A stretch of DNA of 11,737 bases from Pseudomonadota bacterium (GTDB lineage: Bacteria > Pseudomonadota > Alphaproteobacteria > Rhizobiales > Kaistiaceae): assembly GCA_023433185.1 (NCBI GenBank), contig JAEZEN010000421.1, forward strand, positions 1-11,737. Reading direction: 5' to 3'. A program made the position numbers and the translations under genes. Below, piece by piece: positions 2,898 through 11,324 of the stretch. Within the stretch, counting starts at the first letter, position 1. Each line of letters begins with the position of its first letter. Below the pieces are notes generated by a model. It saw nothing but the letters and a program-made list of their open reading frames with translations. It did not search any database and was not told the origin of the DNA.

Positions 2898-4331
2898 ATG
2901 ACCCGTCTCTGGCTATACTGGGAGAACCCGGCCGGCGGCGCGCCGCCGCCGCATGTGCTGCTCTGCAGCCGCATCCTCCGGCGGGTCTGTCTCGGCTGCG
3001 ACATCCGCCTCGTCACGCCTGACAACGTCCGGCACTACCTGCCGGACTACGATCCGCGCCTCGGCCGGATCCGCGTCGTCGACCGGCCCGGCACGGAGAT
3101 CGCGGTGCGCTGCGACTTCATTCGCGCGTTCCTGCTCGAGCGCCATGGCGGACTCTATGTCGACACGGACTGCATCGCCCTCCGCGACTTCGCAGAGATC
3201 GGTGGAAGGCTGTCCAAGGCGGAGTTCGTGGCCATGCGGCGCGTGACGTCGAAGGCGCAGCACATTTCCGTGGGCCTCTACGGTTCGGTCGCCGGTGGGG
3301 CCATCATCTCGGCCTATGGGGAGGCGCTGCGGAATCTCCTGCGGGAAAGGACCGACCTGAGATACATCGAGGCGGGTCAGACCCTGCTGACGCCGCTCGT
3401 CGATCGCTACAGCGAGACCTGCGAACTCCTGCCCGAGCACCTCGTTCACCCGGTCACCGCGCCACGGCAGAGCGCGTTCCTGCGGACGGATGTCGAGCCC
3501 GCCGAGATCATCGCGCCGGAGGCCTTCGGCTTCATGCTGTTCCACCGCACGTTCGAGGAGGCGCTGGCCGGCTGGAGCCTGCGCGATCTCTACTACGGCG
3601 ACATCCTGCTCTCGAAGGTCTTCCGACGCTGTCTGCCGGAGGTGGAGTTCGTCGCGCTGGAGCGCGATGCCGCGGCGTTCGGCGCCCGGGCGCTCATGGC
3701 GGGGGACGCGCTGCCTTGTCCTCAAGCGCATGGTCGAGTTCGAACCGCAAGGGCTGTCCGTCCGCGCCCGTCCGCCCCTCGCCCCGCAGCAGCGCCAGAT
3801 AGGCGTCGATCGCGGTCGCCGGGTTGTCGCCCGGCCCCCAGGGGCGATCCGGGAAGCTGCCGGCGGGCAGGCGCTCGACGATCGTGTCGAAGACAATGCA
3901 GTAGCTGCCGGTCGCGACGAGTGGCGCGTAGAGTTCAAGCTCCGCGAGGACATGATCGTGCGTGTGGCTTGAATCGAGGCAGACCAGGACCCGCTCAAAG
4001 CCGGCGGCGATCTCCCGGACCCGATCCGCGACGCTCGGATCGAGAGAGGGCCCTTCTATCAGCTCCAGGCGGCGGCGCAGGGGATGGTCGTCGAGCGCCG
4101 CCCGGTTGTGCGCGCGAATGTCGATGTCGACCCCCACGACCCGGCGCTTCGGCGCCCGCGGGTCGAGTGTCTCGCCACGCTCCGCCGCGTCGCAGAGCTC
4201 GAGCAGGGCGAGCAGCGAGGCGCTCAGGACCAGCGAGCCGCCGTGGGCGATACCGGTTTCGACGATCAGGTCGGGTTTCACCGCCCAGACGATCTCCTGC
4301 AGGGCGACCATGTCGGTCGGAACCTGGATGA
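2898..4331 (+). CDS. DXD-motif glycosyltransferase (GT32/capsular-synthesis type) with abnormal C-terminal readthrough
   Basis: Residues 1 to about 268 resemble small sugar-nucleotide glycosyltransferases of the DXD sugar-binding type. RCDFIRAFLLERHGGLYVDTD (71-91) is the hallmark, with D89 and D91 expected to hold metal and nucleotide-sugar. The protein starts MTRLWLYWEN, and the ATG at 2898 lies 10 bases after the sulfotransferase stop, so the two genes are probably cotranscribed. The domain ends near base 3700, but no stop follows. The frame stays open to TGA at 4329-4331, adding about 208 residues. That tail is arginine-, proline- and alanine-rich and is simply the antisense of the opposing CmcI-like gene, so it is very unlikely to be native. 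The expected product would be about 265 residues. The donor and acceptor are unknown. I trust the glycosyltransferase call up to about 3700 but not the tail. Confidence 0.72.
   Translation: MTRLWLYWENPAGGAPPPHVLLCSRILRRVCLGCDIRLVTPDNVRHYLPDYDPRLGRIRVVDRPGTEIAVRCDFIRAFLLERHGGLYVDTDCIALRDFAEIGGRLSKAEFVAMRRVTSKAQHISVGLYGSVAGGAIISAYGEALRNLLRERTDLRYIEAGQTLLTPLVDRYSETCELLPEHLVHPVTAPRQSAFLRTDVEPAEIIAPEAFGFMLFHRTFEEALAGWSLRDLYYGDILLSKVFRRCLPEVEFVALERDAAAFGARALMAGDALPCPQAHGRVRTARAVRPRPSAPRPAAAPDRRRSRSPGCRPAPRGDPGSCRRAGARRSCRRQCSSCRSRRVARRVQAPRGHDRACGLNRGRPGPAQSRRRSPGPDPRRSDRERALLSAPGGGAGDGRRAPPGCARECRCRPPRPGASAPAGRVSRHAPPRRRARAGRAARRSGPASRRGRYRFRRSGRVSPPRRSPAGRPCRSEPG
3694..4331. other. 638-base tail-to-tail overlap at a probable rearrangement junction
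   Basis: Two convergent coding frames overlap here: the plus-strand glycosyltransferase readthrough and the minus-strand CmcI-like gene. Only the minus-strand frame carries recognisable family motifs in this stretch. Homology of the plus-strand gene stops close to 3700, and the minus-strand protein loses its family's usual C-terminal ending at about 3715. The two losses meet within some 20 bases. This suggests that a short intergenic segment with both gene ends was deleted, or that two fragments were joined here. Confidence 0.5.
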
Positions 4332-4497
4332 TCGGCCGCCCCATCCACGTGTAGTTGTACATGTAGCGGCTCTGGAAGGCCTGCTCGATCCAGCGGGCCG
4401 AAAGCGCCTGCCACTCGCTGGCGGCCGGATAGCCGGCGATGCGCGCGCGCTTCTCCCGCTCGAAGGCGACGATCGGGTCGTCGGGCCCCTCCGTCAC
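3694..4497 (-). CDS. CmcI/rhamnosyl O-methyltransferase family protein, C-terminus shortened
   Basis: The 267-residue protein belongs to the cephalosporin-hydroxylase (CmcI) family, which also contains rhamnosyl O-methyltransferases acting on glycolipids. Visible motifs are YNYTWMGRPIIQVPTDM (47-63), the SAM-binding ETGIAHGGSL (80-89), VGVDID (121-126), LDSSHTHDHV (174-183), FDT (203-205) and FPDRPWGPGDNPATA (215-229). In a surface-sugar operon, O-methylation of a deoxysugar is more likely than hydroxylation. The start is GTG at 4497-4495, overlapping the upstream gene's TGA in a GTGA junction. The C-terminus is odd: relatives usually continue after an (E/D)xK step with a stretch like LLITVAPDGYLKR, whereas this one ends at K261 followed by AARPPP. 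No other minus-strand frame restores that ending. The core fold and SAM site are intact, so activity is possible but not assured. It is the last gene of the operon. Confidence 0.82.
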   Translation of the reverse strand: MTEGPDDPIVAFEREKRARIAGYPAASEWQALSARWIEQAFQSRYMYNYTWMGRPIIQVPTDMVALQEIVWAVKPDLIVETGIAHGGSLVLSASLLALLELCDAAERGETLDPRAPKRRVVGVDIDIRAHNRAALDDHPLRRRLELIEGPSLDPSVADRVREIAAGFERVLVCLDSSHTHDHVLAELELYAPLVATGSYCIVFDTIVERLPAGSFPDRPWGPGDNPATAIDAYLALLRGEGRTGADGQPLRFELDHALEDKAARPPP

Positions 4498-5315
4498 GGC
4501 CGCTGTGCCTCCCGGGCATCCTCCACAAGGCCCGGCAGGTCGTCCAGGATCGCGTTCCCGGCGAGGCCGAACTCCTCCGCGATGCGACTGACGTCGATCG
4601 GCGGGAATGTCCGCGTCGGCCCCCCCGGCGCGAAGGACACCGGCGCGCCGGTGCACAGGCGGAGCGCCTCCGCCAGCTCGGCGTGACGCGTGGTCCGGCC
4701 GCTGCCGACGTTGTAGACGCGGTGCCGGCCGCCGCCGGCGATCAGCGCCAGGAGGCGTGCCGCCTCGGTTGCCGCGATGTAGTCCTTTGCGGATTCCGGC
4801 GATTCCCGAATCGTCACGCTGCCTCTCTCCTCCAGCTCGGCCAACACCGCGCCCAGGAAGTCGAGCCGGCTCTGGCCCGCCCCATAGACGGAGGCGAGCC
4901 GCGCGACGCGGACCCGGGGAGAGTCGTGCGACAGGCAGAGTGACTCGCCCAGCAGCTTGCTGCAATCGTAGAGCCCGTCTGCCGACGGCACCGCGCGCAG
5001 CGGGGTGTCCTCGTCCGCCGGCACCGCCGGGTCCAGTCCGCCGTAGATCCGGGTGCTGGAGAGGTAGAGCCAGGAGTCGTAGCGAAGCCGCTGCAGCAGG
5101 CGGCTGAGCAGGCAGACATGCGCCTCGACCGCTGCGAAACGCCGTTCGCGGAAATCGGCGGTCAGCCCGATGGCGTAGATCACGTGCCCGGCTTCGCCGC
5201 TTGCCTGGGCCACGGCGTCGCGCGGCGGCACCGCCACGTCGTGCCCCTCCGCCCGCAGGCGGGCGCAGAGATGACGGCCGACGAAGCCTTCCCCGCCGAA
5301 GACGGTAAACCTCAC
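4494..5315 (-). CDS. SDR-family NAD(P)-dependent sugar epimerase/4-ketoreductase
   Basis: This 273-residue extended SDR has the Rossmann motif GGEGFVG (7-13), the active-site serine/threonine in LSSTRIYGG (85-93), and the catalytic pair Y116 and K120 in YDCSK. VASVYG-like (ASVYGAG, 141-147) and YNVGSG (201-206) motifs follow, as in nucleotide-sugar enzymes. It is shorter than GalE-type epimerases (about 310-340 residues), which fits a reductase. The gene starts at GTG 5315-5313, which overlaps the C-methyltransferase TGA by four bases, and it ends in a GTGA overlap with the next gene. Placed after a dehydratase, epimerase and C-methyltransferase, its likely job is NAD(P)H reduction of the C4 ketone of the CDP-sugar, the role NovS plays for noviose. 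That assignment rests on context; C4 epimerisation is an alternative. Confidence 0.84.
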   Translation of the reverse strand: MRFTVFGGEGFVGRHLCARLRAEGHDVAVPPRDAVAQASGEAGHVIYAIGLTADFRERRFAAVEAHVCLLSRLLQRLRYDSWLYLSSTRIYGGLDPAVPADEDTPLRAVPSADGLYDCSKLLGESLCLSHDSPRVRVARLASVYGAGQSRLDFLGAVLAELEERGSVTIRESPESAKDYIAATEAARLLALIAGGGRHRVYNVGSGRTTRHAELAEALRLCTGAPVSFAPGGPTRTFPPIDVSRIAEEFGLAGNAILDDLPGLVEDAREAQRP

Positions 5316-6565
5316 GCGCGGCCTGGCAGCGCTTCCGCCGCCACCTCCTGCATTGCCGGGACGGCCCGGACCAGGCGTCCGCCCCAGTCGTCGATATAGT
5401 GGAGCTGGGCCGCGATCTCGTCGGTCAGGTTCCAGGGCAGGATGACGACGCGGTCGGGCCGCTCGGCGCGCAGCCGTTCCTCGGAGACGACCGGAATGCG
5501 GCATCCGGGCAGGTACATCCCCTGCTTGGCCGGGTTGATATCGACCACGAAGGACAGCAGGTCCCGATGCACGTCCGCGAAGTTCAGGAGGGCCGTTCCC
5601 TTGGCCGCGGCCCCATAGGCGGCCACCTTGAGCCCCGCGCGCTCGGTCTCCTGCAGCCAGGCCAGGAAGTTCTTCCTGACCGTCTCGGCCCGGGCCTGCA
5701 TATCGCTGTAGAACGCGCGATCGCGCACGCCGGAAAGCTGCTCCCGGCGAAGCAGTTCGGCAACGCGAGCGCTCGCCGGGCGGTGGGCATGCTCTGCGGA
5801 CTCGGCGAAGACTCTCAGGCTGCCACCGTGGGTCGGCAGTTCCTCGACATCGAAGATGCGCAGGCCGCCGGCCGCGAAGATGTGTTCGACCGCCGTCAGC
5901 GAAAGATAGGAGAAATGCTCGTGATAGACCGTGTCGAACTGGTTCTCCTGGACCATGTTGAGGAGGTGCGGGAATTCGAAGCTCGCCACGCCTTGCGGCC
6001 GAAGAAGCAGGGCGATGCTGGCGACGAAGCCGTCGGGATCGGGGACATGGGCCAGAACGTTGTTGGCCACCAGCAGATCGGCCTGTCGTCCCGCCGCGGC
6101 GAGGTCGCGCGCCAGGTCCGGGCCGAGGAAGGCCTCGACGATCTCCAATCCGCGGGCCCGGGCCGTGCGGGCCGTCGCTGCGGTGGGTTCGATGCCGTAG
6201 CAGGGGATGCCGCGCGCGCGGACGTATTGCAGGAGGGCCCCGTCGTTGGCCGCCACCTCGATGACGCGACTCGCGGCGGTCAGGCCGAAACGCGCGATCG
6301 CCGCATCCACGAAGCGCTCGCTGTGGCGCAGCCAGGAGGCCGAGGCCGAGCTGAAGAAGGGGTAGTCTGCGGTGAAGAGTTCGTCGGGTCTGGCATGGTC
6401 CTCCGTCTGCACCAGCCAGCAGCTTTCGCAGACCAGAACCCGCAGCGGATAGCGGACTTCCGCCACGCTCAGTGCCTCCTCCGCGAGGAGCGCATTGACC
6501 AGCGGCATGGAGCCGAGGTCGAGGAAGGTAAGCGTCAGTGCCGCGCGGCAGTGGCGGCAGTTCAT
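5312..6565 (-). CDS. SAM-dependent sugar C-methyltransferase (NovU/TylCIII/EryBIII type)
   Basis: The 417-residue length and three-part build match the deoxysugar C-methyltransferases. The N-terminal zinc-binding part has C3, C6, C46 and C49. The central SAM domain has VIEVAANDGALLQY (101-114). Next comes the catalytic segment YHEHFSYLS (214-222), whose tyrosine and histidines match those implicated in proton abstraction in TylCIII-like enzymes. The C-terminal domain carries AAYGAAAKGTALLN (315-328) and VDINPAKQG (341-349). These enzymes add a methyl group to the carbon next to a 4-keto group of an NDP-6-deoxyhexose, at C3 (TylCIII, EryBIII) or C5 (NovU). Which carbon is used here cannot be read. 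The ATG at 6565 overlaps the TGA of the preceding epimerase gene (ATGA), and the end overlaps the SDR start (GTGA). Its presence indicates that the operon makes a branched-chain sugar. Confidence 0.9.
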   Translation of the reverse strand: MNCRHCRAALTLTFLDLGSMPLVNALLAEEALSVAEVRYPLRVLVCESCWLVQTEDHARPDELFTADYPFFSSASASWLRHSERFVDAAIARFGLTAASRVIEVAANDGALLQYVRARGIPCYGIEPTAATARTARARGLEIVEAFLGPDLARDLAAAGRQADLLVANNVLAHVPDPDGFVASIALLLRPQGVASFEFPHLLNMVQENQFDTVYHEHFSYLSLTAVEHIFAAGGLRIFDVEELPTHGGSLRVFAESAEHAHRPASARVAELLRREQLSGVRDRAFYSDMQARAETVRKNFLAWLQETERAGLKVAAYGAAAKGTALLNFADVHRDLLSFVVDINPAKQGMYLPGCRIPVVSEERLRAERPDRVVILPWNLTDEIAAQLHYIDDWGGRLVRAVPAMQEVAAEALPGRA

Positions 6566-7125
6566 GGCAGAACCACTCCTTCGAAAGCCGGGTCGAGCGA
6601 CGGAGCCGAGGCGTCGCGATCGGAAAGATCGGTGATCGGTTCCGGCCAGGCGATTGCCAGCCGCTGGTCGCAGGGGGCGATGGCCATCTCGGCGTCCGGC
6701 ACGTAGGCGGCAGTGTGAAGGTACAGCTCGCAATCGTCAGCCAGGGTCTGGAAGCCGTGGGCGCAGCCCTCGGGAACGAGCAGCATCCGGGCATCCCCGG
6801 CGGTGAGCGTCGCGCCGTGCCAGCGCAGGAAGCTCGGCGAGCCGGCGCGCAGATCGACCGCGACGTCGAACACGGCACCGCGCAGGCACGCGACGACCTT
6901 GGTCTCGGCGTGCGGCGGCCGCTGAAGGTGCAGGCCGCGAACAGTGCCGCGCCGCCGTGTCAGCGTCCGGTTTATCTGCTCGATCCTCCGCCCGCCGAGG
7001 AGCGGCTCCATCTCCTCGCGGCAGTACACCCGCTCGAGCCAGCCGCGCCGGTCCGAAAGCGGCCGACGTTCAATCAGCACGACGCCCTCGAGTCCGGTGG
7101 GTGAGATATTGAAGCGGCGGTTCAC
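6562..7125 (-). CDS. rfbC: dTDP-4-dehydrorhamnose 3,5-epimerase family protein (RmlC type)
   Basis: This cupin-fold epimerase has the usual RmlC length, 187 residues. Motifs include DRRGWLERVY (25-34), RGLHLQ with catalytic-type H66 (63-68), ETKVVACLRGAVFDVAVDLR (74-93), VPEGCAHGF (117-125), and Y141, which aligns with the catalytic tyrosine region. The enzyme acts on a 4-keto-6-deoxy NDP-hexose and inverts C3, C5 or both. With a CDP-glucose pathway upstream, the substrate is probably CDP-4-keto-6-deoxyglucose rather than the dTDP form, and the enzyme may be a single-centre epimerase like NovW; this is inference. The start is GTG at 7125-7123, in a GTGA overlap with the rfbG stop, and it ends in an ATGA overlap with the C-methyltransferase. 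The family is certain; the specificity is open. Confidence 0.88.
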   Translation of the reverse strand: MNRRFNISPTGLEGVVLIERRPLSDRRGWLERVYCREEMEPLLGGRRIEQINRTLTRRRGTVRGLHLQRPPHAETKVVACLRGAVFDVAVDLRAGSPSFLRWHGATLTAGDARMLLVPEGCAHGFQTLADDCELYLHTAAYVPDAEMAIAPCDQRLAIAWPEPITDLSDRDASAPSLDPAFEGVVLP

Positions 7126-8198
7126 GCTGTCGAGTCCCGATACCGAGTGATCTGTGCCAGCGTCTCCCTCCGCAGGTCACCACCATCGCGCCAGATCCGG
7201 TACCAGGCGGCGGTCTCCTCCAGCACCCGGGCGAAGGGCCATCGCGGGCTCCAGCCGAGCAGGTCCCGGGCGCGCGTCGAATCGATGCGCAGCACCTGGG
7301 TCTCGGCGATGTCCGACCGTTCCGGGTCGACTTCGACGGTCGCTTCCGGTCCCCAGGCGGCAGCCATCGCCCGCGCCACCGTGAGGACGCTCGCCTCACG
7401 GCCGGCTTCAGGACCGAAGTTCCATGCGGTCGCGAAGCGCTCTCCCTCCGGCGAGCAGAGGCATTCCGCCAGACGAAGGTAGCCGGACAGCGGCTCCAGG
7501 ACGTGCTGCCAGGGGCGGATGGAGTGCGGGTGGCGGAGGCGCACCGCCGTGCCGGCGTCGAACGCGCGCACGCAGTCGGGCACCAGGCGGTCGCGGGCCC
7601 AGTCGCCGCCGCCGATCACGTTGCCGGCTCGCGCCGTGGCAAGCCGCGCCGCTCTCGGCGGGTCTGCGAAGTAGCTGGCGCGGTAGGCGGTCGCTACCAG
7701 CTCGGCACCCGCCTTGCTGGCTTCGTAGGGGGTCTGACCACCGAGCGGATCAATCTCTCGACAGGGGTAGGGCCAGGGGCCGGGGGCATAGCACTTGTCG
7801 CTTGTAGCCAGCACCACGGCGCGCAGATCGTCTCGGCCGCGCAGGCAGTCGAGCAGATGCGCCGTACCCATCACGTTGACCGAGAATGTCTCCAGCGGCC
7901 GCGCGTGGCCTTCGCGGACCAGAGACTGCCCAGCGAGGTGAAAGACGACCTCTGGGCGCGCCCGCGCCAGTGCTCGGTCCAGAGCTTCGGCGTCCCTCAG
8001 GTCGGAGCGCTGCTCATCGGAAAGGGCGTCGGCGACCCCCGCAAGTTCGAAAAGGGCCGGGGACGTGGGAGGGTCCAGAGCGTAGCCGTAGACCTCGGCG
8101 CCCATCTCGCGCAACCACAGAACCAGCCAGCTGCCCTTGAATCCGGTATGCCCGGTCACGAGCACGCGCCGGTCCCGCCAGAAGGCCTCCGCCGGCAT
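7122..8198 (-). CDS. rfbG: CDP-glucose 4,6-dehydratase
   Basis: The 358-residue extended SDR matches RfbG, which converts CDP-glucose to CDP-4-keto-6-deoxyglucose with bound NAD in the cytoplasm. Visible are the N-terminal FWRDRRVLVTGHTGFKGSWL (6-25), highly typical of RfbG, HLAGQSLVR (87-95), TSDKCY (132-137) with the Asp-Lys of the dehydratase site, YEASK with Y158 and K162, ARAGNVIGGGDW (189-200), and RPWQHVLEPLSGY (228-240). The length equals that of known RfbG proteins. The ATG at 8198 is preferred because its A is shared with the rfbF TGA (TGATG) and the protein then begins right before the family motif; a GTG at 8216 is possible. The stop overlaps the rfbC-like start. No rfbH-type 3-dehydrase is present in the window, so the C3 hydroxyl is probably kept. 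Confidence 0.93.
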   Translation of the reverse strand: MPAEAFWRDRRVLVTGHTGFKGSWLVLWLREMGAEVYGYALDPPTSPALFELAGVADALSDEQRSDLRDAEALDRALARARPEVVFHLAGQSLVREGHARPLETFSVNVMGTAHLLDCLRGRDDLRAVVLATSDKCYAPGPWPYPCREIDPLGGQTPYEASKAGAELVATAYRASYFADPPRAARLATARAGNVIGGGDWARDRLVPDCVRAFDAGTAVRLRHPHSIRPWQHVLEPLSGYLRLAECLCSPEGERFATAWNFGPEAGREASVLTVARAMAAAWGPEATVEVDPERSDIAETQVLRIDSTRARDLLGWSPRWPFARVLEETAAWYRIWRDGGDLRRETLAQITRYRDSTA

Positions 8199-8980
8199 CA
8201 CCCGCTCTGGTCCCACACGTTCCAGGGCGCTCCTCCTTCGGTGTAGAGCCGCTCCAGGTAGTTCTGGTCCCGCATCGTATCCATGGGCTGCCAGAAGCCC
8301 TCATGACGGAAGGCCATCAGCCGGCCGGTCTTGGCAAGGCCGAGAAGCGGCGCACCTTCCCACGGCGTCTCATCACCCTCGATACAGTCCAGCACGCTGG
8401 GGGAGAGAACGAAGAAGCCGCCGTTGATCCAGCCGCCGTCGCCGAGCGGCTTCTCGGTGAAGGCCGCTACCTGGTCGCCGCTGCCGAGGTCCAGTGCACC
8501 GAAACGGCCGGGGGGACGAACTGCTGTCAGGGTCGCCGGTCGGCCATGGGCGCGGTGGAAGGCGAGCAAGGCGTCGAGATCGACATCGGCGAGGCCATCG
8601 CCCTAGGTAAGGCAGAAGTCCTCATCTCCCAGGAAGGAGGCGACCCGCTTGAGCCGCCCGCCCGTCTGGGTCTGCTCGCCGGTATCGATCAGGGTGACGG
8701 ACCACGGCTCAGCCCGGCGCCGGTGCACTTCAACCTCACCACTGTCCAGGCGGATCGTCACGTCGGTGAGGTGCAGGGCGTAGTTCGCGAAATACTCCTT
8801 GATCATGTAGCCCTTGTAGCCCAGGCAGATCACGAAATCGGTCAGCCCGAAGTGGCTGTAGAACTTCATGATGTGCCACAGGATCGGCCGCCCGCCGATC
8901 TCCACCATGGGCTTGGGCCTGTCGACCGACTGCTCGCTGATCCGCGAGCCGCGTCCGCCCGCCAGTATCACGACCTTCAT
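8198..8980 (-). pseudogene. rfbF: Glucose-1-phosphate cytidylyltransferase, interrupted by an in-frame amber codon
   Basis: This gene would make CDP-glucose from CTP and glucose-1-phosphate, the first step of the operon's pathway. From ATG 8980 the frame reads MKVVILAGGRGSRISEQ, then RPKPMVEIGGRPILWHIMKF (21-40), VICLGYKGYMIKEYF (50-64) and GDEDFCLT (118-125), all typical of RfbF. Codon 126 (8605-8603) is TAG. The same frame then continues GDGLADVDLDALLAFHRAHG, with PPGRFGALDL, FTEKPLGDGGWINGGFFVL, PWEGAPL and GFWQPMDTMRDQ, to a normal TGA at 8200-8198. Without the amber codon the protein would be 260 residues, matching the family (about 257). The family has tyrosine at codon 126, so one base change explains it. 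The 125-residue fragment lacks the metal-binding GDG and the sugar site and should be inactive. It could also be a sequencing error or be read by a suppressor tRNA. The downstream genes may suffer polarity. Confidence 0.88.
8603..8605 (-). other. In-frame amber (TAG) codon in rfbF
   Basis: On the minus strand the codons run CTT ACC TAG GGC GAT GGC. Family members have a TYGDG motif at this place, so TAG replaces TAC or TAT. No other stop or frameshift is seen in either half of the gene, and both halves share one frame. Confidence 0.9.
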
Positions 8981-9087
8981 CAGTGCGAGATCGTCCCCTT
9001 TGGTGGCCAGCTGCGGATCGCCGCTCGCGTCCAGGTGTTCGTCTATCATGGTCGGGCAGCGCCCCGAAAGGGAGCCGGATGGTCAAC

Positions 9088-10023
9088 TCACCGCCAGAGC
9101 AGCCCCTGCCCGGTTGGGAGCATCAGAATCCGGACGCCCAGTTCCTCGGCCACCTTGTCCAGATCGCGGCGTTGCACCGAATGCTTGGCGAAGCCGTAAT
9201 CGTCGAACACCACGGGGGCGCCGGGCTGCAGGTGGGGCCAGAAGTACTTCAGCGCCTCGCATTCCGGGAACGCGACGTTCATGTCGATATGCAGGTAGGC
9301 GACGGCCGTCCCGCGATAGTGGACGAGGCTGTCGGGGACCGGACCTTCCACGATGCGGACGAAATCCTTGTCGGCGAATGTCGCGCGCACCAGCTCCGCG
9401 AGCCGAGGGGCCGGCGTGATGCCGCGGTTGGGGACCCGTGCTTCCTCCTCGGTTACCTGTTCCGCTACGGAGCCGCTGAAAGTATCGAAGAGGTAGAAGC
9501 TACGGGCGGCGAATTCATCGTTTCCGAGATAGCTGATGATGCACTGTGCGCCACCGCCGCGGTCGACGCCGCACTCGACGAAGTCGCCAGGCAATGCGGC
9601 CGCCCGAGCGGCACAGGTCATCAGCGTGTAGCGGCGCCACCGCAAGTCGTGATGGCCGTAGGCGAGGATACGGCCGGCTTCGTAGGCCGATTTGAAGCGC
9701 TCGTCCTCCAGCCAGTCCGCTGCCGCGAGGCTGGCGAGATTGTCCCCCGCATAGGGCGCCCTCCGGAGGAGGCGGGCGATCAGCCTGCAGCGCCTCTCGT
9801 CCTCCCGCATCTCCCGATAGGCATCCAGCAGGTTCTTCAGAGCGGTGCTCGTCGTCGCCGCCCGCAGGCAGGCGATCAGGCTGCTCTCGGGGTCTGTCGC
9901 GAGCGCGCCTCGCAGATGATGCCTGAGGATTCGGCGGAGATTCTCGTCCGCCGTGACCGCGGTGAGTCGGCGCGCGGCAACAGTCTCCTCGCTCCTGTCC
10001 GCCACTGGCGGCTTCTCGTCCAT
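9088..10023 (-). CDS. TylF/MycF-family O-methyltransferase (macrocin O-methyltransferase type)
   Basis: The 311-residue protein carries a TylF-type SAM-dependent, metal-dependent O-methyltransferase domain in roughly residues 110-311. Motif I is in GDFVECGVDRGGGAQ (146-160), followed by FYLFDTFSGS (176-185). The metal/catalytic acidic residues are in YLHIDMN (D247) and VVFDDYG (D274, D275). Relatives methylate sugar hydroxyls in antibiotics (TylF, MycF, NovP) and many surface glycans. An N-terminal extension of about 100 residues, charged and probably helical, exceeds the usual domain and has no recognised motif. The ATG at 10023 follows GGAG at 10037-10034. The gene is first in the minus-strand run, 107 bases before rfbF, and probably acts on the sugar made by that operon, either as a nucleotide sugar or after transfer. 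The precise hydroxyl cannot be inferred. Confidence 0.85.
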   Translation of the reverse strand: MDEKPPVADRSEETVAARRLTAVTADENLRRILRHHLRGALATDPESSLIACLRAATTSTALKNLLDAYREMREDERRCRLIARLLRRAPYAGDNLASLAAADWLEDERFKSAYEAGRILAYGHHDLRWRRYTLMTCAARAAALPGDFVECGVDRGGGAQCIISYLGNDEFAARSFYLFDTFSGSVAEQVTEEEARVPNRGITPAPRLAELVRATFADKDFVRIVEGPVPDSLVHYRGTAVAYLHIDMNVAFPECEALKYFWPHLQPGAPVVFDDYGFAKHSVQRRDLDKVAEELGVRILMLPTGQGLLWR

Positions 10024-10315
10024 GCGAACTTGGCTCCGCTCGCCGGAGGCGCTCCTGGATTGGAGCCTATCCCGAGACCTCCGGGCAGCATACCACGGCA
10101 TTCGCCGAATCCCCGTGCTTGCCGCGGCCCTGGCAGGAATTCGCGCCGGTCGCAATCGGCCGCCGCAAGATCGGCACCCAGGCCGCACCTGCCGCGCCGC
10201 GGGCTCTCCCGCAACGCGCTAGACATCGCGAAGCGGGCGAGCCGCCGTCCGGCGAAATCGTCGCAGAGGCGCGCAGCCGGGCAAGTTCCGAAATCTGCCA
10301 ACCCGGAGACAAGCA
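10024..10315. other. Divergent intergenic region, 292 bases
   Basis: This gap separates the start of the minus-strand sugar operon from the start of the plus-strand hydrolase, so both promoters should lie here. On the minus strand TATGCT at 10093-10088, preceded by TG one base upstream, resembles an extended -10 element, but no convincing -35 is found. A plus-strand frame from ATG 10022 (66 residues, to 10222) contains a short hydrophobic stretch but has weak third-position G/C bias and no recognised motif. The only clear site is the hydrolase ribosome-binding sequence GGAG at 10305-10308. Confidence 0.6.
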
Positions 10316-11146
10316 ATGGCAATCATCACCACATCCGACGGGACCACCATCTTCTACAAGGATTGGGGCCCGAAAGACGCCCAGCCCATCATGTTTCACC
10401 ATGGCTGGCCGCTCAGCGCCGACGACTGGGACAACCAGATGCTGTTCTTCCTGTCCGAAGGTTATCGCGTCATCGCGCATGATCGGCGCGGTCATGGCCG
10501 ATCCGACCAGACCGACACCGGCAACGAGATGGACACCTATGCCGCGGACGTGGCTGAGATCGCGAGGGCGCTCGATCTTCGCGATGCCGTCCACATCGGC
10601 CATTCGACCGGCGGCGGCGAAGTCACCCGCTATGCGGCCCGGGCCGAGCGTGGCCGCGTGGCCAAGGCCATCCTGATCGCCGCGATCCCGCCGGTGATGG
10701 TTCAGTCCAGGGCCAACCCGGACGGCGTCCCCATGGAGGTCTTCGACGGGCTGCGGTCCGCCCTCGAGACCAATCGCGCGCAGTTCTACCGCGATCTGCC
10801 GAGCGGGCCCTTCTATGGCTTCAACCGGGAGGGAGCGACGGTGAGCCAGGGCCTGATCGACAACTGGTGGCGTCAAGGCATGAGCGGCGGGGCAAAGGCG
10901 CACCACGACTGCATCGAAGTGTTCTCGGAGACCGACTTCACGGAAGACCTGAAGGCACTCGCCATCCCCGTGCTTATCATCCATGGCGAGGACGACCAGA
11001 TCGTGCCCATCGCGAACTCCGCGCACAAGGCGATCAAGCTCGTGAGCGACGGCACGATGAAGACCTATCCCGGGCTGTCGCATGGTCTCTTCGCGACGCA
11101 TCCCGATGTGGTGAACCCGGACATGCTCGCCTTCATCAGGGCCTGA
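10316..11146 (+). CDS. Alpha/beta hydrolase, cofactor-free chloroperoxidase/arylesterase type
   Basis: The 276-residue protein is full length for non-heme haloperoxidase-like alpha/beta hydrolases such as Pseudomonas fluorescens arylesterase. The N-terminus reads MAIITTSDGTTIFYKDWGPK. The oxyanion-region motif HHGWPLSADDWDNQ (28-41) follows, then AHDRRGHGRSDQ (54-65). The nucleophile is S97 in GHSTGGGE, the acid D227 in HGEDDQIVP, and the base H256 in GLSHGL, so the triad is complete. Known members hydrolyse esters, and many carry out perhydrolysis that gives halogenation in vitro; the natural substrate here is unknown. No signal peptide is visible, so it is probably cytoplasmic. The ATG has GGAG at 10305-10308 with 7-base spacing. 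It is transcribed away from the sugar operon and toward an AraC-type regulator, and nothing ties it to glycan synthesis. Confidence 0.93.
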   Translation: MAIITTSDGTTIFYKDWGPKDAQPIMFHHGWPLSADDWDNQMLFFLSEGYRVIAHDRRGHGRSDQTDTGNEMDTYAADVAEIARALDLRDAVHIGHSTGGGEVTRYAARAERGRVAKAILIAAIPPVMVQSRANPDGVPMEVFDGLRSALETNRAQFYRDLPSGPFYGFNREGATVSQGLIDNWWRQGMSGGAKAHHDCIEVFSETDFTEDLKALAIPVLIIHGEDDQIVPIANSAHKAIKLVSDGTMKTYPGLSHGLFATHPDVVNPDMLAFIRA

Positions 11147-11324
11147 GACGGCTTTCCGAAGCCCACCGAAACCGCGGGAGATGCGATGCTGGCCGGCTGG
11201 GCGTCGCACCTCCGGCATCGATGCAGCAAGCAGCGCCTCGCCTCGACCACTCGAGCGGAAGGATCCCGCCATGACGAAACCAGGTCCGGTCTTCCCCGAA
11301 GGACGGCAAGATTTGCGCGACAAC

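Follow-up and report, generated by a model that had tools for sequence, protein, structure and literature searches.

Does a TAG codon inside rfbF, the gene for glucose-1-phosphate cytidylyltransferase, mean that the enzyme is lost, or is the codon an error, or is it decoded or reverted in some special way? We analysed the whole stretch of 11,737 nucleotides around this codon, here called the window. Most likely, a known gene has been put out of action by a recent, ordinary mutation, without any novel mechanism of decoding or switching.

The complete rfbF frame covers 8980..8198 on the minus strand; it opens with the ATG at 8980 and contains the TAG at 8605..8603 as one of its codons, Table 1. 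Counted from this family start, with the frame read with X at the stop, the TAG is residue 126. The pieces on the two sides of the stop were searched apart against TIGR02623 (glucose-1-phosphate cytidylyltransferase). The N-terminal half of the profile, positions 1-125, is present before the stop (E 6.4e-65, 219.1 bits) and the C-terminal half, positions 127-255, behind it (E 8.5e-56, 189.2 bits), which leaves just one profile position to the stop, without a change of frame. This bears out the sequence-only reading, which had described a single in-frame amber codon with the frame intact on both sides. Due to the TAG, the pieces reach only these separate scores, and no single continuous RfbF frame above the curated TIGR02623 cut-off of 300.25 bits was found. 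The gene caller of the protein database starts the truncated product (P0002, 148 aa) at 9049; the family start is at 8980.

Both halves of the gene match the RfbF family (structures 1TZF and 1WVC) end to end. The window differs from the family in that the stop takes the place of the tyrosine in the TYGDG motif, and the product ends before GDG. In the intact relative P0005, which matches 1TZF at E 2e-114, the TYGDG motif is aligned. The aspartate of GDG is presumably metal-binding.

Table 1. Coordinates, strand and basis of assignment of the features around rfbF in the window.
Feature	Position	Strand	Basis
TylF-like O-methyltransferase, upstream of rfbF, start not settled	9088..10188	-	PF05711
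rfbF before the stop, 125 aa (family numbering)	8606..8980	-	TIGR02623 1-125
In-frame TAG, residue 126 of RfbF	8603..8605	-	frame reading and TIGR02623 profile
rfbF behind the stop, ends in TGA	8198..8602	-	TIGR02623 127-255; conserved columns without excess change
rfbG, CDP-glucose 4,6-dehydratase, ATG overlaps the rfbF TGA	7122..8198	-	TIGR02622 above cut-off; 358 aa database product
rmlC-like sugar 3,5-epimerase	6562..7125	-	PF00908; TIGR01221 below its cut-off
Sugar C-methyltransferase-like (Methyltransf_13/14)	5312..6565	-	PF08421, PF08484
NAD-dependent epimerase/reductase (SDR), stop TGA	4494..5309	-	PF01370
CmcI / rhamnosyl O-methyltransferase-like, without the C-terminal motif of most relatives	3694..4530	-	PF04989

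The residue replaced by the stop, which the sequence-only reading had given as the tyrosine directly before GDG in a conserved motif, is nearly invariant. It is tyrosine in all 76 readable rfbF loci of a first set (80 loci given) and in all 33 readable loci of a second set (37 loci), while in 30 loci from a viral collection it is tyrosine in 28 and tryptophan in two. Together these 139 loci represent 130 distinct sequences, of which 129 have tyrosine and one has tryptophan at the DNA level, and none contains a stop inside the alignment. The 30 viral-collection contigs (L119-L148) thus hold RfbF relatives, and two of them (L145 and L146) carry the same rfbF, with tryptophan before GDG. For the class-wide RfbF matches, 29 new loci were aligned and show no stop; other stop marks, among them a "2 TAG" mark on an incomplete gene that lies at the end of a contig, are outside that set. 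A TAG mark in rfbF of Methylobacterium goesingense was rejected as a candidate, being the natural gene end and not an internal stop.

A true sister strain was not found in the genome-contig, class-genome and plasmid searches, and the nearest relatives are the four proteins P0003-P0006. All four have tyrosine at residue 126; their identity to the front part of the window protein is 90, 89, 89 and 81%, and over all 83, 84, 84 and 79%. For three of them the length of the longest contig (8,915, 55,831 and 2,365) recurs, with the same source, among RfbG relatives with 74-76% identity, an indirect hint that these three lie in the same operon as those RfbG relatives. The fourth has no RfbG partner, and an unrelated RfbG (P0256, 54%, other source) also shows the length 8,915. 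In a scan of genome contigs, the best 80 of 592 RfbG relatives are 45-55% identical. In the class of M. goesingense, a centre chosen by guessing that the window is alphaproteobacterial, RfbF identity reaches 67% in 385 genomes and the identity of the SqdB-like protein reaches 70% in 372. Among plasmid records, none covering 80% of the window was found. With the hydrolase end left out, 55 records match; among the matches listed, coverage is at most 7% of the query, and Cupriavidus rfbF or rfbF-rfbG is found at 74%. In a distant plasmid search, 117 records were found to carry rfbF, at 60-80%.

On the minus strand, the genes follow in the order TylF-like, rfbF, rfbG, RmlC-like, C-methyltransferase, SDR and CmcI-like, with an AraC regulator at the far end of the window. 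We infer that this gene set fits the synthesis of a CDP-activated, C-methylated deoxysugar for a surface glycan. The plus strand carries an epimerase fragment, an SqdB-like epimerase, a sulfotransferase, a DXD glycosyltransferase and an alpha/beta hydrolase. The second of the two plus-strand epimerases is taken here to be SqdB-like, Pfam giving the epimerase family only; this gene and the sulfotransferase gene behind it (795-2887) adjoin the sugar operon. The alpha/beta hydrolase region (10305-11161) has 85.5% DNA identity to a plasmid of Rhizobium sp. WL3, and horizontal transfer of this region is possible.

Starts and stops overlap along the operon, with TGATG between rfbF and rfbG, and GTGA and ATGA at later junctions. 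These overlaps agree with the earlier proposal that the downstream genes are translationally coupled and make polarity plausible. With a stop about 400 bases early, rfbG should therefore be translated less, and the genes after it perhaps as well.

To judge the age of the stop, we compared the part behind it with relatives. Two of the 47 columns conserved at 90% or more deviate there, while 105 full-length relatives average 1.90 and 55 of these 105 have at least two. At the 80% conservation level, four of 63 columns deviate, against a mean of 4.11. Behind the stop, the window gene lies on average 41.0% away from 101 outgroup sequences, P0005 39.8 and P0003 40.1; before the stop the values are 27.5, 30.0 and 29.5, respectively. 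The outgroup sequences themselves give 39.2 behind and 25.2 before the stop. The rear part of the window gene is a little more diverged relative to its front than in P0005 and P0003, and not more than in the outgroup. The rear part has a third-position GC of 0.79 and so falls inside the 0.77-0.90 of the genes read in the right frame, a range that leaves out the sulfotransferase and the glycosyltransferase (wrong frames). An excess of substitutions at conserved sites, as in an ageing pseudogene, was thus not found behind the lesion, and it follows that the lesion is either young or not real. A young lesion is one of the options of the sequence-only reading (recent, erroneous, or tolerated by suppression). 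As read from the sequence, the allele may be young, not real, or tolerated, and clear decay is not visible.

We consider it probable that rfbF of an uncultured bacterium was recently inactivated by a nonsense mutation, its operon presumably serving to make a CDP-activated, C-methylated deoxysugar for a surface glycan. The support consists of the family pieces that flank the stop, the tyrosine in 129 of 130 distinct relatives, the lack of extra change behind the stop, and the occurrence of the truncated product on two contigs. Translation would halt after 125 residues, before GDG and everything behind it, and the enzyme would be dead, so that no CDP-glucose would come from rfbF. Given the overlapping junctions, expression of the downstream genes would probably drop as well, and the surface glycan would be expected to lack the C-methylated deoxysugar. 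If the stop is real in the cells, the loss may have been tolerated or favoured, for example by phages.

Such losses have precedents. Phage-resistant Salmonella carry nonsense and frameshift mutations in rfaH and rfb genes (PMC11538992). As in the window, these are early or mid-gene losses of function in surface-glycan genes, but the Salmonella mutants were selected by laboratory exposure to phages, whereas the window allele is known from sequence alone. In an O-antigen-deficient food isolate of Salmonella Senftenberg, rfbD is truncated by an inversion via an insertion sequence (PMC13304406). This is a natural loss of rfb function, as that in the window would be, but it is due to the inversion and not to a nonsense codon. 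Judged by titles, no literature on a nonsense codon in rfbF was found. Loss-of-function mutations in rfb genes are already well known, and the window is a further case if the stop is real.

The main rival to the knock-out is that the living gene is intact, and that the TAG is an error of assembly or sequencing, or comes from a minority variant in the consensus of a low-coverage metagenome contig. We give this a smaller but still appreciable chance. The window is probably a metagenome contig, the junction between the glycosyltransferase and the CmcI-like gene may itself be a misjoin, and the change behind the stop is no larger than in relatives; the absence of decay fits a sequence error as well as a young mutation. 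However, the other frames of the operon are open, and the identical truncated protein (P0002), like RfbG, is found on two contigs of up to 32,866 bases, so that an error peculiar to a single assembly becomes less likely. Against the knock-out, the two contigs may share reads or be one sequence entered twice.

The fragments of RfbF in the protein database also bear on an error. Among the best 120 of 7991 matches, all short RfbF, 11 end exactly at residue 125, or 10 of 119 without the window's own. Ends at positions 126-135 have a mean of 1.8 per position compared with 10 at 125 (Poisson P 2e-5), in a count that leaves out 35 of the 120 with unaligned tails of more than two residues, two aligned to 256, and the window's own. 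If six tailed fragments aligned to 126-135 are added, the background is 2.4 per position and the Poisson P 2e-4. The query was the 125-residue piece, which itself ends at 125, and this may bias the count. Without P0226, which has a one-residue offset, the fragments ending at 125 have 66-83% mutual identity, so these ends are not one inherited event. Six of the ten belong to "src", a source without contig listings, but so do 55 of the 119 overall. One of the ten is named "partial" by its source, and another (P0166) occurs on two contigs of up to 17,859 bases. A stop can be reached from a tyrosine codon by more single-base changes than from the codons next to it; the number of such routes was rejected as the origin of the pile-up, as it does not predict the other fragment ends (Spearman 0.00 over 126-215, 0.04 with 125 included). 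The pile-up may come from contig ends, read errors, real alleles or query-end bias.

Another explanation is that the rfbF stop is part of an older and broader decay of the operon, in which the end of the CmcI-like gene was lost first; we regard this as unlikely. The last gene of the operon is its main support. The CmcI-like protein ends with AARPPP directly after a mostly conserved lysine, while 12 of 15 relatives have a [TS]-x-APDG-aromatic motif near the C-terminus, following the place of this lysine, and end within about 15 residues. The other three (L033, L089 and L120, the least similar) also lack APDG, so the motif is not universal. The missing end was not found in any frame of the DNA that follows, which means that it is not a simple frameshift. 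Here, at 3694-3735, the CmcI-like gene abuts the 3' part of the convergent glycosyltransferase, whose plus-strand frame crosses the end of the CmcI-like gene without a stop until 4331. A deletion or misjoin near 3717 is the simplest reading, and a natural variant of the end is possible. For the glycosyltransferase, plasmid matches are weak and limited to four Pantoea records, and no match was found in 240 genomes at E 1e-25. Against broader decay, rfbG, the rmlC-like gene, the C-methyltransferase gene and the SDR gene all have open frames, and their alignments to relatives cover almost the full length (for SDR with two relatives only). The statement in the sequence-only reading that there is no further decay is nevertheless doubtful, given the absence of this C-terminal motif. 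A possible second defect would also fit the preferred knock-out, in a pathway no longer under full selection.

It is very improbable that full-length RfbF is made by readthrough of the TAG or with the help of a suppressor tRNA, although the part behind the stop looks constrained. In the window, araC ends with TAG, eleven residues behind its HTH domain; judged from this one gene, TAG appears to serve as a normal stop, and the amber of rfbF did not qualify as recoded or suppressed. The RNA behind the amber folds as its shuffles do (z 0.02), no tRNA genes were found within the window, and the relatives have no stop at residue 126. Tolerance by suppression, as had been suggested, thus finds no support.

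The further suggestion of a reversible nonsense allele, acting as an on/off switch of the glycan, is hardly credible: ten other listed RfbF sequences end at residue 125, and the nine compared in register differ clearly, but these may be contig ends or read errors, there is no stop among the 130 distinct relatives, and no mechanism of frequent reversal is seen in 8000-9300, which has no inverted repeat of at least 14 bases and only one imperfect direct repeat of 15 bases that does not span the stop.

As it stands the finding matters little: the stop is either another inactivating allele of a well-known gene for sugar activation or an error. It is a reminder that a lone premature stop in a metagenome contig should be backed by reads before biology is built on it. 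It would be highly surprising if residue 126 were a recurrent natural nonsense site in unrelated environmental bacteria, perhaps under repeated selection such as phage escape, with reversion restoring the glycan. If it were true that truncation at this codon recurs in living populations, selection on glycans in uncultured bacteria would be measurable from sequence.
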